A DNA stretch of 37,432 bases from Chloroflexota bacterium (GCA_026713825.1 JAPONS010000089.1:1-37432), one strand, 5' to 3'. Counted from the first letter of the stretch, positions 16,955-23,479 are shown. Made by a program: numbers and translations. The notes: generated by a model from the sequence alone, not told the origin.

Positions 16955-18292
16955 TTACCGGTGCGGACCGCGGTCCGCACCCTCAAGCTCCGGCCGGTCC
17001 ACGAACGCCTTGCGCAGATCGCGGGTCGCCTCAAACCAGCCCTGCCCCTTGGGCAAGATGGTGCCGCCCGATCGCTCCTGGTAAAGCTCCGGGCGGTCTA
17101 CCGTGGCGGGAACCATACCTTCCTGCAGGTTGATGGAGGCGCTGATGATGCGTCGCCGGGTCTTGATGACCATGGAGTCGCTTGATCCAAGGTGCTCCTT
17201 GGTACGGTCAGCAATGGCGCCCATTTGCTCCGTCACCGACTGGTCCTGCAGGTGGATGCCGCTGATGCCGGTGAAGATCTTGTTGGTCTTCTGCGCCTCG
17301 CGGTCGATGCGGTAGTCGTTCTCCGCGCGAGCGGCCAGGCGCCAGCGGCCCAGGAAGCCGGTGCCCTGGGGGAGGAACTGGGGAAGGAGGCTGGCGCCCG
17401 GAACGTTGGTTCCTAGGCCGGCGCTGCCGATGCCGCGGGCGACGGGGTTGGGGCCGGAGATGTTCCAGAACATCGTGTGCTCGTCGTCGATCGGCACCCA
17501 TGCCCGCACCAGGATCTGCCACCCCAGCACGCTGGTCGGGATCATGGTGTAGAAGGGCAGCAGAAAGTGGGCGATGCGCCAGTAGATGGAGTCCTCTTCC
17601 GCCGGTCGCCACGCGCCGTAGGACGTGCCGTAGTCCGTGTCGACCACGTCGTAGCCGAGGGGAGCGCGGTCTCTGACCGTATAGTAGTCGTAGGAGCCTG
17701 GCGACAGCTTGTCGGCCGTCACGCTGCCGAGGTGCAGGAAGCCCAGGTGAGACGTGTCGATGTCGCCCTCAAGCGCCTGCACGAAGTTGCAGTCACGCAT
17801 GGCCGTCCAGACCGACTGCTCGACGTCGTCGGGCAACATGTTCGGCTCGATGTCCGGCAGCGGCGGAAGCTCCCTGCGTGGGCCCATGTATGTCCAGATG
17901 ATGCCGCTGCGCTCCATGCAGGGGTAGGCCTTGATCTTGACCTTGTCCTTGAAATTGGACTCGGCGGGTTCCGACGGCATGTCGACGCAGTCACCGTTCA
18001 CGTCGAACTTCCATCCATGGTAGACGCAGCGGAGCCCGCACTCCTCATTGCGCCCGAAGAAGAGGCTCGTGCGCCGGTGCGGACAATAGTTATCGATGAG
18101 CCCCACCTTGCCGTCGGTGTCGCGGAAGGCGACGAGGTCCTCGCTGAGCAGGCGCACGCGGACGGGGTCGCTGTCCGGGCTCGGCAGCTCCCTCGACATG
18201 AGGGCGGGGATCCAATGCTGCCGAATCATCTCGCCGGTGGGCGTCCCCGGCCCCACCTGACACATCAGTGCATTGTCACTGGCGGATAGCAT
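16955..18292 (-). CDS. Rieske [2Fe-2S] aromatic-ring-hydroxylating oxygenase, second copy
   Basis: This is a paralogue of the oxygenase at 597-1886, predicted to hydroxylate an organic compound with an external reductase. The 445-residue protein has Rieske ligands C70-P-H72 and C89-V-Y-H92, at the same residue numbers as its paralogue, and the iron-site motif D179-T-S-H182-x4-H187. The frame opens at 18313, but that ATG precedes the ribosome binding site GGGGAGGAG. The ATG at 18290-18292 follows this site and aligns with the paralogue's start. Identity to the paralogue is near complete around residues 70-124 and clearly lower elsewhere, which suggests different substrates on a common electron-transfer surface. 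It has its own promoter and terminator and stands alone. Confidence 0.93.
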   Translation of the reverse strand: MLSASDNALMCQVGPGTPTGEMIRQHWIPALMSRELPSPDSDPVRVRLLSEDLVAFRDTDGKVGLIDNYCPHRRTSLFFGRNEECGLRCVYHGWKFDVNGDCVDMPSEPAESNFKDKVKIKAYPCMERSGIIWTYMGPRRELPPLPDIEPNMLPDDVEQSVWTAMRDCNFVQALEGDIDTSHLGFLHLGSVTADKLSPGSYDYYTVRDRAPLGYDVVDTDYGTSYGAWRPAEEDSIYWRIAHFLLPFYTMIPTSVLGWQILVRAWVPIDDEHTMFWNISGPNPVARGIGSAGLGTNVPGASLLPQFLPQGTGFLGRWRLAARAENDYRIDREAQKTNKIFTGISGIHLQDQSVTEQMGAIADRTKEHLGSSDSMVIKTRRRIISASINLQEGMVPATVDRPELYQERSGGTILPKGQGWFEATRDLRKAFVDRPELEGADRGPHR

Positions 18293-18331
18293 AGTTTTCT
18301 CCTCCCCTTGCATACGAAAAGACTTGCGGGG

Positions 18332-18360
18332 AGTGTAGTGACTGAGGGTGCAGGCGTCAA
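18332..18360 (-). promoter_or_regulatory. Promoter of the second Rieske gene
   Basis: On the minus strand, the -35 TTGACG (18355-18360, 5 of 6) and the -10 TACACT (18332-18337, 4 of 6) are 17 bp apart. Start would be near 18325, giving a leader of about 33 nt. It sits between this gene and the stop of the helicase gene upstream on the same strand. Confidence 0.6.
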
Positions 18361-18374
18361 GGTGAGGGGGAGTG

Positions 18375-21287
18375 TTACTGGAATACGAGATCCGCCGCAG
18401 CGAGAAGGATAAGGTCGTTGGGATGGCGAAACATTGTGCACCGGCTTGTCAAACGAGCGGCAGCCTCTGAGTCCAGTATATCGAGAAGGTGCCTACGCTC
18501 ATCAGGTTCAAGGGCATGAGGCTCAACACGATAATCAGCCGGCTCAGTCAACATATCACCGAAGAATCGCGGGTGTGCAACAGGTGCTTTTTTTCCCTCT
18601 GGCAAAAATACTGGCAGCAACTCCTCCTCGCTTGCCACACCTTGGTCGTTTTGCCAGCGAAGTTTGAAGAGGGCAAGGGCCCCTGAAACCTCGCTAGGAA
18701 CACTTGCGAATTCGCCTCTGAACTCAGGGGATTGAGCATACTCAATGAGCCACTTGAAGAACTCACTGCGAAAGTCCATTTGAGCTATGTCACCGTGTTC
18801 TTGGGCAAGTTGCCGGTCGGCAGTGACCACTACGTTGGAAGCGCGTGGTCGAAACTCAGAGAAGGCTCCGATGAGTTCCGGGGGCAAGTTTAGCCCTAAT
18901 GCGCGCCCACCAAACCGACGCTCATATGTAATGCCTTTGTACGGGAGAATACCTTCCAAGAAGGCCAATACGTCGCTGGCACCAAGTGCATACAGAGTAG
19001 ATGAGGTCGTTGGATCATACCCTTTCACATTGGCGAACAATCTATCTTGTTGCTCTTTAGCTTCTCTGGCACGTCGCAACGCTTCTTCTACTTCTGCCTC
19101 AGTGTGATTGATGTTCATTGCCTGACTGTTGGCTAGTAGCTCCGCCATGTCAAGCCGTTCTAACAGTTCACCCACGATTTCGGTTTCCATGCCCTCCTGA
19201 TACTCAGCACTGACATGAGCCATATCTTGTGCAATGGCGTACACTCTTTGCAACATGAGGCCAAGCGTTTGATTGTCAAACCCATCGCTAGAAGTCAGAT
19301 TAAACACCATGACACGTTCGTTTTGACCATAGCGATACAGCCGCCCTGCGCGCTGCACAAGACGGCTGGGGTTCCATGGCAGGTCGTAGTTTGCCATGAC
19401 ATGGCAGCGGTAGTGTAAATTGATCCCTTCCCCACCGGCCTCAGTGGAAACCAGGAACATGGCGCTATCGTCATTGGCAAACGCGCTTGTAGTTTCCCGC
19501 TTTTGCTCCAAACTCATGCCACCATTGAGTGTGAGAACACGTGAGAGAGGGAAGCGCTCTTGCAAAGCCTCCACCAAGTAATCTTGTGTGGATCGATATT
19601 CGGTGAATACCAGAAGTTTCTTGGCTTCTTCGTGCAAGGGAGTAGCAATCTCCGACAAGAATGACTCTAACTTCAAGTCCGATGTCTTCACGGCAGGAAT
19701 GGATGCAAGGAGCCCTTCGATGTATTCTTTCTCTCCAGTAAAGAACGTCTGAGCACCCAATAACTGTTCAGTAAGACTATCCGCTGCATTGCCGAGATTG
19801 TCATCACCGTCGGTTCCGTCCTCGTAAGCATCTCTGTCTGTGTCAATGTTCATGGGAGGAGAAATAGGTGCACTGGGCCTTACGGCTACCGTAACCGCAG
19901 AGTCAGTTCGCCTCTCAAGCCGGGCCAGTCTCCTGTTCAGAGCGTCCTCGATTGCCTTGATGCTGGATGATGCTAGTTTCCGGTATGTTGTCATGACAAA
20001 ACCAATTGCTCGCCCTTGAACTCCACCTCTACGAGAAGCGCTATAGCCGTTGCGCAAATACTGCAAAAGTTGCTCACTGAAAGCTTGGGCCTCTGTAGAG
20101 AGCGCAACCTCGATTCTGCGTGTGTCCTGTCCTCTGAAAAGGAACTCTCCGTTGACGTCTGTGGCAAGACTCTTTCTATTGCGAAGCACCATCTCAGGCA
20201 CGACTTGATTGTCAAAGAAAATGTTACGTAAACGTTGATGTAAATCTGGGCGTAGCAGGTTCAATAGATTCACAAATTGCTCGGAGTGTCCTTGATGCGG
20301 CGTTCCAGTCAAGAAAACACACGCGTCAGTTTGAAGCCTTAGTTTTTGGAGAAGATTGTATCGAAGTGTAGTGGCTTGGCCGTGAATCTTGCTCAAATGG
20401 TGAGCTTCGTCACATACAATGACATCCCATACTCCGGAGGCCATAAATCGCTGAAGGTGGTTATCCGTCTTTGCTCTATCTATCGAAACGATCACTTTTT
20501 CGTATAGCCTCCAATGAGAGAGGTTATCGGTAGTGATAGAAAAGTCCAAGCCATAAATGCGGAACTCTTCATTAAACTTGTTCTTCATCTCATCTTGCCA
20601 CTGACGAACCACCGCCGCGGGACAGACAACCAAGACCCGCCGCACTTGGCGCTGCCGCTTCATTGCCGCAAGGAGCAGGCCAACCTCAATAGTCTTTCCC
20701 AAGCCAACATCATCGGCTATGAGCCAATTCCGTTGGTCAGCGGTCATGATGCGATGGACAAGATCTATCTGATGTGGAAGCGGGTCCACATCCAGCCTGT
20801 CAAGGGATCCGGTTACCTGATTCCAAGAATCCAAGGCGTAAGCAAGCGCTTTGAGTCTGAAGCGCTGTACAGCGTCGGGGTCCGAGACCTCGCCGCGCGG
20901 AAACTTGAGGCGCGCGTCCATGACGCGTGCTAGGTTCTCGTACGGCAACCAGCGGCTTTCCCCTGTTGTGTGCAGTTGCACCAACGCGAGTTCGCGATCA
21001 CCAATAGTCCGCACCGCGCGGATTGTACCGGTGCCCAACGAATGCCGAGTATTGGACACAGGTTGGTCTTTGACGACGAAACCTAGCTGGAAACCGCATC
21101 GCAGTTCATCCAACTGATGCCAGCGAAGCCCGTCCCGCCATTTCACCAGAACCAACGTGTTGTCGCCCTGCTCCTTGCGGTCGTTGACTTCTCCGATGGA
21201 GACTGAATCCCTCTGCAAAGGTGTTGCTAGCGACACCCAACAACCTTTGACTGGGACCAGACGCAAGGACGCTTGTGGATGAGTCAT
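18375..21287 (-). CDS. SNF2/RapA-like superfamily 2 DNA translocase
   Basis: This is a Swi2/Snf2-type ATPase of 970 aa that would translocate on duplex DNA and remodel bound proteins. Two small beta-rich segments at about 15-66 and 84-124 resemble the tandem Tudor-like N-terminal domains of RapA. Lobe 1 has motif I DDVGLGKTI (192-200), DEAH (293-296) and TGTP (327-330). An insert with an acidic patch (about 482-505) separates it from lobe 2, which has TEAGGEGINL (615-624) and QRAGRLYRYGQ (645-655). About 300 uncharacterised residues follow. The ATG at 21287 follows GGAGG by 10 nt; a TTG three codons earlier is too close to that site. It starts 24 bp after the acidic-protein gene. Lower GC than the flanks suggests transfer. 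RapA-like recycling of RNA polymerase or phage defence (compare DrmD and DpdE) are both possible. Confidence 0.85.
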   Translation of the reverse strand: MTHPQASLRLVPVKGCWVSLATPLQRDSVSIGEVNDRKEQGDNTLVLVKWRDGLRWHQLDELRCGFQLGFVVKDQPVSNTRHSLGTGTIRAVRTIGDRELALVQLHTTGESRWLPYENLARVMDARLKFPRGEVSDPDAVQRFRLKALAYALDSWNQVTGSLDRLDVDPLPHQIDLVHRIMTADQRNWLIADDVGLGKTIEVGLLLAAMKRQRQVRRVLVVCPAAVVRQWQDEMKNKFNEEFRIYGLDFSITTDNLSHWRLYEKVIVSIDRAKTDNHLQRFMASGVWDVIVCDEAHHLSKIHGQATTLRYNLLQKLRLQTDACVFLTGTPHQGHSEQFVNLLNLLRPDLHQRLRNIFFDNQVVPEMVLRNRKSLATDVNGEFLFRGQDTRRIEVALSTEAQAFSEQLLQYLRNGYSASRRGGVQGRAIGFVMTTYRKLASSSIKAIEDALNRRLARLERRTDSAVTVAVRPSAPISPPMNIDTDRDAYEDGTDGDDNLGNAADSLTEQLLGAQTFFTGEKEYIEGLLASIPAVKTSDLKLESFLSEIATPLHEEAKKLLVFTEYRSTQDYLVEALQERFPLSRVLTLNGGMSLEQKRETTSAFANDDSAMFLVSTEAGGEGINLHYRCHVMANYDLPWNPSRLVQRAGRLYRYGQNERVMVFNLTSSDGFDNQTLGLMLQRVYAIAQDMAHVSAEYQEGMETEIVGELLERLDMAELLANSQAMNINHTEAEVEEALRRAREAKEQQDRLFANVKGYDPTTSSTLYALGASDVLAFLEGILPYKGITYERRFGGRALGLNLPPELIGAFSEFRPRASNVVVTADRQLAQEHGDIAQMDFRSEFFKWLIEYAQSPEFRGEFASVPSEVSGALALFKLRWQNDQGVASEEELLPVFLPEGKKAPVAHPRFFGDMLTEPADYRVEPHALEPDERRHLLDILDSEAAARLTSRCTMFRHPNDLILLAAADLVFQ

Positions 21288-21311
21288 AGTTTCCAAGCCT
21301 CCGGGTAGAGA

Positions 21312-22433
21312 TTACCATCCTAGCCCGTCATGCCAGTCCACAGGGTCATGCCAATCTTGCCGCGCAAACCAAGATTGTGCTCCACGGTCTTGCCGAAACT
21401 CTTCAATATCTTCATAGGTCGTAATCTTGCCAGGCAACTTGGATTTCGGAATGTGTAGCAAGTCCATACTCAGGTCTGGTCTGTACTGCCAGTCCTCTGC
21501 CTCATGAAGCTGTGCTCGGTAGACAGCAAAATCCACCAGTGAGAACAAGCCGTTGTCAACTCGGGTCCATACATTCAGGTTATCCCAGTCCTCAACCCAC
21601 TCCTCGTTGATAATTTCATATATGGCGCAATCGATTCGCGAGTTGATGAGGCGCAAAGCCTTATCGAGGGTAAGCACCCTGTAATCCAGAATCGTCTCCC
21701 AATTCCATGCCCTCTTTTTTTCGGGATCCTTCCGCCACGTCAGCTTTCCCCACAGATCCTCACTTTCGGACCAGTGGGATCGGAAGGCGAGAAACATATC
21801 TAAAGAGCGTCCGTTCCAATTGTTGTCCTTCAACCATGAAAACCATCTGCCAAAGCGGGAACTGCTCATTAGTAACAATGTTTGCATGACCTCGGCCTTT
21901 ACGGTTTCGTTGATCCCGTCAATGCCGCTCAGCCACATACTGATATCCAGTTCCCGTCGGTTGAGATCACCCCTTGGGACAAAGATGGGTTGCCGATCAT
22001 TTTCCAAATCCTCTGGTGTAACGATACTCCACTCTGGGTCATCCAACGGGTCGAAGACTCGTTGGATTGTATGACCGGCATTCTCTTGCGGGATGTCCCA
22101 AACCTCATCCGATTCGGATGAGGTTTCGTCATCTTCCTCAGCCTCGTTAGGAGAGACTGCCCCTTGTTGCGATTCATCGGCCTCGTCATCAGGTGCAACA
22201 AGAGGTACTGTGTCTGGCTCGTCTGAGGCTTCAAGGGGGGCCTCATAGTCCTCGTCAGTGACAAAAACATCTTCTCGGAACAACGGCGTCTCCGACGCCT
22301 GCGGTGCTACCACAGCCTCCCATGGGTCATCTATGAGTTCCGACACAACCAAGGTGGCCGAGTAGTCTTCCTCTGACCACCGGTTGTTGAGCTCAAAGCT
22401 CAACTGGCTAGGTTGATGACGCCGCTGTGGCAT
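21312..22433 (-). CDS. Acidic protein of unknown function, partner of the SNF2 ATPase
   Basis: I do not recognise this 373-residue protein. Residues about 20-140 are strongly acidic and low-complexity, rich in Glu, Asp, Ser and Pro. The rest (about 150-373) looks like an ordered Trp-rich alpha/beta domain, ending in the near-repeat WHDPVDWHDGLGW. There is no signal peptide or membrane segment. I used the ATG at 22433, preceded by GAGG. The frame continues to a TTG at 22493, and an ATG at 22475 would add a Cys-containing N terminus (CMSCALRYPC), so the start is uncertain. The stop is 24 bp before the ATPase start and both genes share low GC, so they form one operon. The acidic region might bind the ATPase or mimic DNA; that is speculation. 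Confidence 0.7.
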   Translation of the reverse strand: MPQRRHQPSQLSFELNNRWSEEDYSATLVVSELIDDPWEAVVAPQASETPLFREDVFVTDEDYEAPLEASDEPDTVPLVAPDDEADESQQGAVSPNEAEEDDETSSESDEVWDIPQENAGHTIQRVFDPLDDPEWSIVTPEDLENDRQPIFVPRGDLNRRELDISMWLSGIDGINETVKAEVMQTLLLMSSSRFGRWFSWLKDNNWNGRSLDMFLAFRSHWSESEDLWGKLTWRKDPEKKRAWNWETILDYRVLTLDKALRLINSRIDCAIYEIINEEWVEDWDNLNVWTRVDNGLFSLVDFAVYRAQLHEAEDWQYRPDLSMDLLHIPKSKLPGKITTYEDIEEFRQDRGAQSWFARQDWHDPVDWHDGLGW

Positions 22434-22499
22434 GGCAATCGGCCTCAAGCACGGGTATCGAAGTGCACAGGACATGCAGCCGACAAAATCCAATACAGG

Positions 22500-22513
22500 T
22501 TAGTGTACACTAA
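22500..22513. promoter_or_regulatory. 14-bp perfect palindrome upstream of the SNF2 operon
   Basis: TTAGTGTACACTAA is a perfect dyad in the 143-bp gap between PAC2 and the acidic-protein gene. Its position just before the operon suits an operator for a dimeric repressor. No regulator gene is adjacent. It could also mark the edge of the low-GC unit. Confidence 0.35.
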
Positions 22514-22561
22514 AGACTGGATAAAGGATGAATAGCGCGAGAGAAGTCGCGACGACAACCC

Positions 22562-22600
22562 CAGCGCCGGACAACCCTAGTTCGGGTTGTCCAGGCGCTG
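22562..22600 (-). terminator. Hairpin at the end of the PAC2 gene
   Basis: The left arm (CAGCGCC plus GGACAACCC, 22562-22577) pairs with the right arm (GGGTTGTCC, one bulged A, GGCGCTG, 22584-22600) around a 6-nt loop. The PAC2 stop codon (22577-22579) lies at the loop edge, so coding and terminator sequence overlap. There is no clear T tract on either side. Confidence 0.5.
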
Positions 22601-23479
22601 GCTCATGTCCGCGAGGAAGCTCTGGATGTCGGCGGGGAGGTCCGAAGCGGCTTCTTCTTCGGCGGAACGCTCCTCCGCCGAGTTGGGGTGGCGCGAGTCG
22701 TAGTAGGATTCCAAGCGCTTGACCAACTCCTGCGCCGCCGGGTTGTTCTTGATCTCCGAGTCGAGCTCTGCGTACTGTTTGCGGCCCGCCTCTGTCTGCG
22801 GGAGGTCTGCAGGCATGGTGTAGACGGTGGCGAGGATTTCCAGCAGCCGCGCCGTGCCCGCGTAGTCGTGCTCCAATTGCGCGTACTGCGGCAGCCGAAC
22901 CATGAAGCTGACATCCTCGACGCCGATCTTGGGTAACTCCTGCGAGAGGAGGTTCATGATCGAGGTTGGCCCCTCGTAGTTGCTGCGCCGCCGCGAGACG
23001 AGCCCCCGCAGGCCCGTCATCGGTTCGCCGTTGAGGGTGCCGGTGACTTGGAGGGGGCGAGTGTGCGGCGCGGCGTCGTACATGGCCCCGATGCGGCTGT
23101 ACCGCTTCACATGTAGCGCCTTCAACACTTCGAGGATGGAGGCGATGTAGTCCTCGGCGTTTGCGTGAGGTTCGCGCACCTGCATCAGAATGATGGGCGG
23201 ATCTGTGAGGCCCGACAAGTGGCTCACCCGGGTGTTGGGGACACGCTGCACGCGCTGCCCGTTGCGAAAACGCGTCGTCGGGCGGTAGCGCGTGAAGTCG
23301 AAGAAGGCGCCTGGCTTCTCCAATCGGCCAAGCTCCTGGGAGCCGAAGTAACGCTCGAGACGGCGCAGGGTGAGTGTGCCCACGCTGCCTGCGTCGAGCC
23401 ATGGGTAGAGCATGGCGATGACGTGCGGCTCTTCAATGTGAGGGATCGGTTCAGTGAACTCAAATGCGCCGATCTTCAT
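22577..23479 (-). CDS. PAC2 (proteasome assembly chaperone) family protein
   Basis: The protein matches bacterial PAC2-family proteins (PF09754 type), related to archaeal and eukaryotic proteasome assembly chaperones. In bacteria the role is poorly defined. The 300-residue sequence begins MKIGAFEFTEPIPHIEEPHVIAMLYPWLDAG, has the family-like core PPIILMQVREPHANAEDY with a following helix, and the segment MTGLRGLVSRRRSNYEGPTSIMNLLSQEL. It ends in an acidic helical tail with a hydrophobic repeat (about 255-296) that could be a coiled coil. A second long frame on the same strand (22500-23402) is a shadow: Arg/Pro/Ala-rich and without any domain. Upstream it diverges from a lipoprotein gene. No proteasome genes are in the window. 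The family call is from pattern memory. Confidence 0.72.
   Translation of the reverse strand: MKIGAFEFTEPIPHIEEPHVIAMLYPWLDAGSVGTLTLRRLERYFGSQELGRLEKPGAFFDFTRYRPTTRFRNGQRVQRVPNTRVSHLSGLTDPPIILMQVREPHANAEDYIASILEVLKALHVKRYSRIGAMYDAAPHTRPLQVTGTLNGEPMTGLRGLVSRRRSNYEGPTSIMNLLSQELPKIGVEDVSFMVRLPQYAQLEHDYAGTARLLEILATVYTMPADLPQTEAGRKQYAELDSEIKNNPAAQELVKRLESYYDSRHPNSAEERSAEEEAASDLPADIQSFLADMSQRLDNPN

Follow-up and report, generated by a model that had tools for sequence, protein, structure and literature searches.

Introduction

The role of the SNF2 (Swi2/Snf2) translocase is the least understood among those of the components of the DISARM, BREX type 3, Dpd and ARMADA systems, and a further SNF2 ATPase, HmaA, is found in small defence operons. 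An architecture of Tudor domains, a Swi2/Snf2 core and an alpha+beta region has been reported for both RapA and BrxHII (PMC12839542). Here we describe a two-gene unit, encoding a SNF2 ATPase and an acidic partner protein, in a 37,432-nucleotide stretch of DNA from a Chloroflexota bacterium (GCA_026713825.1 JAPONS010000089.1:1-37432), the whole of which we refer to as the window. A first-pass annotation of this DNA had suggested, with hedging, that the two genes form a small new pair acting in defence or in transcription remodelling, and that reading is supported by the linkage of the two genes, the enrichment of defence genes around their relatives, the grouping of the ATPase away from RapA and the lack of a known family for its partner. 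Between the two functions the context favours defence, and we consider it likely that the pair acts in defence. We found no description of the pair in open papers (subscription papers being outside the search), and judged by the libraries searched and the open literature, it is a previously uncatalogued two-gene module, probably a new form of SNF2-based defence.

Results

Organization and co-inheritance of the gene pair

The pair fills positions 18375–22433 of the window on the minus strand. The upstream gene (21312–22433) encodes the acidic partner of 373 residues, and the downstream gene (18375–21287) the SNF2 ATPase of 970 residues; both reading frames are present on one strand with a 24 bp spacer, as had been read from the sequence at the outset. 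The ATPase gene starts at an ATG at 21287 with a Shine-Dalgarno sequence (GGAGG) about ten bases upstream and stops at 18375; there is also an in-frame TTG at 21296. The partner gene runs from an ATG at 22433 to a stop ending at 21312, and this start is supported because its N-terminal motif, WSEEDY...DDPW, is found again in relatives. A search of Rfam gave no match, and signals resembling promoters or terminators did not exceed the chance level.

A single scan of 84,980 species genomes yielded 80 full-length relatives of the ATPase with roughly 35–59% identity, and three further full-length relatives (about 40% identity) are encoded on plasmids of Deinococcus aquaticus, D. actinosclerus and Nitrosococcus halophilus. 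Directly upstream of all three plasmid ATPase genes lies an unannotated gene, and a C-terminal domain is common to the three products. When the gene immediately upstream of each ATPase relative was picked by position alone, an iterated profile seeded with the window partner reached every one of the encoded proteins and none of the reversed decoys. Searched against 19,089 open reading frames from 200 loci, the partner profile matched at 78 of the 80 genome loci, at the three plasmid loci and in the window; the other two genome loci are cut at a contig end, so that all 78 testable genome loci carry the pair. The profile had no match at loci of other SNF2 proteins or at 80 viral-contig loci holding the 80 best SNF2 relatives in IMG/VR. 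The partner gene is always directly upstream of the ATPase gene and on the same strand, with tight or overlapping coupling, and each of 24 whole genomes contains exactly one partner copy, always at the pair.

Because it is conserved at all 78 testable loci, the pairing does not reflect chance, and the two genes are conserved together across genomes. Evolutionary distances among ATPases and among partners are correlated (Mantel r 0.84, p 0.0005; 47 loci). Divergence is much faster in the partner (median identity 18% vs 43% for the ATPase), which is consistent with a conflict with phage factors. The pair occurs in at least eight phyla, as named in the records: Chloroflexota, Pseudomonadota, Desulfobacterota, Acidobacteriota, Gemmatimonadota, Latescibacteria, Deinococcota and Bacteroidota. 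A search of E. coli with a Vibrio DNA query, in distant mode only, gave no copy. That this is a conserved, mobile two-gene unit we regard as virtually certain.

The constant gene order, with the partner first and the coupling tight or overlapping, is also that of many antitoxin–toxin pairs, and an alternative explanation is an abortive-infection or toxin-antitoxin-like device, in which the free ATPase would be harmful and the acidic partner an inhibitor released on infection. A DNA-like acidic tract would suit such an inhibitor, but the pair has no toxin domain and DNA translocases alone are not usually toxic, and we think this explanation improbable.

The SNF2 ATPase

The ATPase (minus strand throughout) begins with two small, beta-rich barrels of the Tudor/SH3-like type (residues ~12–122; 20922–21254), which are modelled by AlphaFold2 (AF2) with a predicted local distance difference test score (pLDDT) of about 90 and contain the conserved sequences LxPVxGCWV and WLPYExL. 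These are followed by the SNF2 core (residues ~139–690; 19218–20873), in which the Pfam domains SNF2-rel_dom and Helicase_C (PF00176 and PF00271) are both above cut-off and the two RecA-like lobes carry all of the SNF2 motifs; across 51 relatives, DDVGLGKTIE, DEAH, TPHQG, STEAGGEGIN and QRxGRLYRYGQ show little or no variation. The complete motif set and the Tudor-like N-terminal segments predicted by the first-pass annotation are thus both present. It had also left about 300 C-terminal residues unassigned; some 270 residues do follow the core, but they form an alpha+beta region (residues ~700–970; 18378–19190) that is also found in RapA and BrxHII, and the C-terminus is explained in outline because the arrangement agrees with the published RapA/BrxHII architecture (PMC12839542). 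The region has no recognisable nuclease motif, and there is none among the conserved columns of the alignment of 51 relatives.

In a Foldseek search of the PDB, the AF2 model is matched best by RapA, along almost its entire length (6bog_A, 1131 columns), with the same domain order of small barrels, SNF2 core and C-terminal alpha+beta region. The 26 pair ATPases in a tree of 70 SNF2 proteins, built by a quick method with RapA, HmaA-like, BrxHI/HII-like and other defence-associated groups included, all fall into a single group with a Shimodaira–Hasegawa-like approximate likelihood ratio (SH-aLRT) of 100; RapA is a long branch. By tree or profile score this clade is distant from RapA, DrmD, DpdE, BrxHI/HII and HmaA: a profile of pair ATPases scores the full-length pair members included at 1086–1332 bits, the nearest outsider at 612 and RapA at 188. 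Conversely, the window ATPase scores 166.2 bits with the RapA equivalog model (NF003426), for which the cut-off is 576, so that it does not group with housekeeping RapA.

The structural match to full-length RapA is the first of several points in favour of a role in the cell's own transcription, in which the ATPase would free stalled RNA polymerase for recycling and the acidic partner would displace nucleic acid from the polymerase. There is a precedent in Bacillus, where the acidic disordered tail of the RNA polymerase delta subunit acts beside HelD, an SF1-type ATPase that frees RNA polymerase; the likeness is one of functional analogy, and we claim no sequence relation. The conservation of acidic disordered tracts also fits a transcription role, as does the position of some copies, including that in the window, among metabolic genes. 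The low RapA score and the distance from RapA in the tree argue against it, together with the distribution and neighbours of the pair described below.

Two further observations concern SNF2 proteins outside the pair clade. The top-scoring SNF2 protein outside it is encoded on an IMG/VR viral contig (L121:7242-10529) and, judged by eye, has an N-terminal phospholipase-D-like fusion; it is possibly another uncatalogued, single-gene defence protein. A neighbouring SNF2 group is also encoded on IMG/VR viral contigs (L126:1-4079 and the related L122-L131), and in L126 a gene for a 434-residue protein begins 3 bp downstream of the SNF2 gene, which may represent a different two-gene SNF2 module.

The partner protein

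The partner has a constant layout across relatives, consisting of a variable N-terminus, a strongly acidic tract and a helical domain. In the window protein the acidic, low-complexity tract (residues ~68–150; 21984–22232, minus strand) is predicted to be disordered, with a net charge of −17 in 40 residues and pLDDT values mostly below 55 up to about residue 130. The helical domain of about 165 residues that follows (residues ~155–320; 21474–21971, minus strand) is modelled with pLDDT above 90, is common to all partners and has two nearly invariant tryptophans; the C-terminal half of the protein contains 7.9% tryptophan. The combination of an acidic half with a Trp-rich domain, noted from the sequence alone, is therefore confirmed. 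A net charge of −12 or lower over 40 residues is found in 70 of 78 partners vs 23 of 502 neighbour proteins. The N-terminus may be acidic only, tetratricopeptide repeat (TPR)-like (some Pseudomonadota) or coiled-coil (others), the latter two labels having been assigned by eye, and in Deinococcus it has 1160 residues. Near the N-terminus, a sequence of the form W-x-x-E-D-[FY]...DPW (window ~22320–22379) is shared by eight partners and by none of the 502 neighbour proteins, and is a possible binding motif.

Profile and structure searches, which might have placed the partner in a known unrelated family, gave no family match in Pfam, NCBIfam, PADLOC or the PDB. Foldseek and VIA-align gave no convincing fold, the best match (Z 5.8) covering 66 residues of a designed helical protein, and BFVD likewise gave none, which does not prove a new fold. 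A tblastn search with the partner alone found nothing in its phylum, in plasmids or in phages, and BLASTP between the window and Nitrosococcus partners is not significant; the link between them depends on the profile chain, and the family is recognised only through the genes upstream of ATPase relatives. The conserved columns are mainly tryptophan and hydrophobic residues, and because they lack a catalytic signature we infer that the partner is an adaptor, not an enzyme.

Insertion and genomic context

The pair has a GC content of 51.6%, compared with 62.8% elsewhere in the window, and the two flanking genes are at 64.8% and 63.6%; the lower GC content reported earlier is thus borne out, and the 60-base line at 19021 is at 46.7%. 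The flanking genes lie outside the unit, with a Rieske oxygenase (LigXa_C-like; 16955–18313, minus strand) on the left and a PAC2-family protein (22577–23479, minus strand) on the right. In three genomes of the same genus these two genes adjoin, with 129–210 bp between them. The closest of these empty sites has 88% DNA identity on both sides, and the additional ~4.2 kb in the window (18360–22565, with approximate ends) contains just the pair. None of five close relatives has this ATPase, one having a different SNF2 gene, and the partner is present in 4 of 393 genomes of the class, including one short, relic-like match. In Nitrosococcus the pair is carried by a plasmid, close to Dsr1 and to a restriction endonuclease. 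The pair was acquired by horizontal insertion, as is evident because of the drop in GC content, the three empty sites, the sparse occurrence in the class and the plasmid carriage in Nitrosococcus. The insertion is not explained by terminal repeats, a target-site duplication, a tRNA or an integrase, none of which was found.

Where the insertion ends on the right, a palindrome-like sequence (CAGCGCCGGACAACCC / GGGTTGTCCAGGCGCTGG) at 22543–22595 spans the stop codon of the PAC2 gene; it was not seen in the empty sites. In a genome of the same order, a short match of 111 residues to the partner (L253; G695:C59:21973-22140) looks like a relic of the pair. The Rieske gene at 16955–18313 belongs to a strikingly expanded family: genome-wide (G000), the genus has at least 28 LigXa_C-like Rieske oxygenase paralogues per genome.

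The neighbourhoods of the relatives point to defence islands. At a threshold of 1e-20, 92 proteins neighbouring the pair match 196 PADLOC models, whereas 91 control proteins taken elsewhere in the same 20 genomes match 7; the counts are inflated by redundant restriction-modification (R-M) models, such that models outnumber proteins, but the contrast is still large, and the expected enrichment near known defence genes is observed. Recurrent neighbours include type I (HsdM/HsdS) and type III R-M genes, McrBC, WYL regulators, Z1, GmrSD and TIR domains. A housekeeping role in transcription does not fit with these neighbours, with the empty sites or with the accessory distribution in the class, and we regard such a role as unlikely, if marginally less so than the toxin-antitoxin-like device.

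Any third gene family is limited to at most 9 of the 80 loci. We rejected a HEPN-like protein as a candidate core component, since it is adjacent in only five of the 80 loci. In Alcanivorax-type loci its gene immediately precedes the partner gene or overlaps it (L087:1572-2393, L090:5922-6578, L098:6021-6674, L103:5819-6472 and L109:5580-6644), and the protein has an RNQxxH motif within a conserved C-terminal stretch, which suggests an optional third component with RNase activity.

Discussion

Our preferred reading, which we hold to be probable, is that the pair is a mobile, two-gene module directed against phages or other mobile genetic elements, composed of a nuclease-less translocase and an acidic adaptor. 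Several observations weigh against it. No nuclease, methyltransferase or toxin domain can be recognised in either protein; the window copy is flanked by metabolic genes and not by a defence island; RapA has the same fold and is a relative unrelated to defence; and the redundancy of R-M models inflates the PADLOC counts.

A tentative mechanism, whose details are doubtful, can be proposed from the domain composition. The ATPase, being RapA/BrxHII-like, would translocate on double-stranded DNA without a nuclease of its own, and the conserved helical domain of the partner would dock on it. The acidic disordered tract, often accompanied by a TPR-like or coiled-coil N-terminus, might be a decoy resembling DNA and keep the ATPase in check until it engages invading DNA; alternatively, it could capture RNA polymerase or basic DNA-binding proteins once these have been stripped off by the ATPase. 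ATP-driven removal of transcription or replication complexes would then block expression of the invader without cutting its DNA. A more specific and rather unlikely version is a bacterial form of remodeller-plus-chaperone immunity, in which the ATPase clears RNA polymerase or basic DNA-packaging proteins from invader DNA and the fast-evolving adaptor captures or replaces them, such that the invader is silenced uncut; if true, this would parallel the eukaryotic SNF2 remodellers that are paired with acidic histone chaperones.

The pair is widespread, yet its partner is absent from the major family, defence and structure libraries searched. If the preferred reading is correct, this is a minimal, nuclease-less defence device built on a SNF2 translocase, with two genes and no additional enzymes, and the SNF2 ATPase's own role in defence becomes directly testable.

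Among described proteins, RapA (HepA) is the most similar in structure, sharing the tandem small beta-barrels, SNF2 core and C-terminal alpha+beta region, but the identity in the structural alignment is about 16%, and E. coli rapA sits between rluA and polB without such a partner. The same RapA-like architecture of Tudor, Swi2/Snf2 and C-terminal alpha+beta domains is found in BrxHII of BREX and ArmA of ARMADA (PMC12839542, PMC12458937). DrmD of DISARM, which has a SNF2 core and a similar length, is the best NCBIfam match of the pair ATPase, at 317 bits against a cut-off of 610; DpdE of the dpd cluster, another SNF2 ATPase, follows at 205.7 bits against 500, and neither these two cut-offs nor that for RapA is reached. 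Among PADLOC models the closest is BrxHI/HII (324 bits), followed by DrmD (294) and HmaA (260).

These partial matches, and the type I and III R-M genes that recur nearby, could be taken to mean that the pair is not an independent system but serves restriction systems nearby as an accessory, or is what remains of DISARM, BREX or Dpd. Genuine members score far higher, however, with 1296 bits for BrxHI/HII (L012) and 1632 for HmaA (L016), and with no third family beyond the nine loci noted above and an insert confined to the pair, we consider this very improbable. DrmA, DrmB, DrmC and a DNA methyltransferase are neither in the insert or scanned flanks nor conserved across the 80 loci, where there is likewise no other conserved neighbour gene and hence no dpd cluster; as the first-pass annotation had observed, no other DISARM or dpd genes are present, the nearest scanned flanks being metabolic or housekeeping. 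PglZ, BrxC and methyltransferase genes, similarly, are not conserved beside the pair, and the ATPase forms a clade separate from that of BREX. Hma is comparable in being a small defence operon with a SNF2 ATPase that gives a partial match, and differs in the far higher score of its true member and in having another partner.

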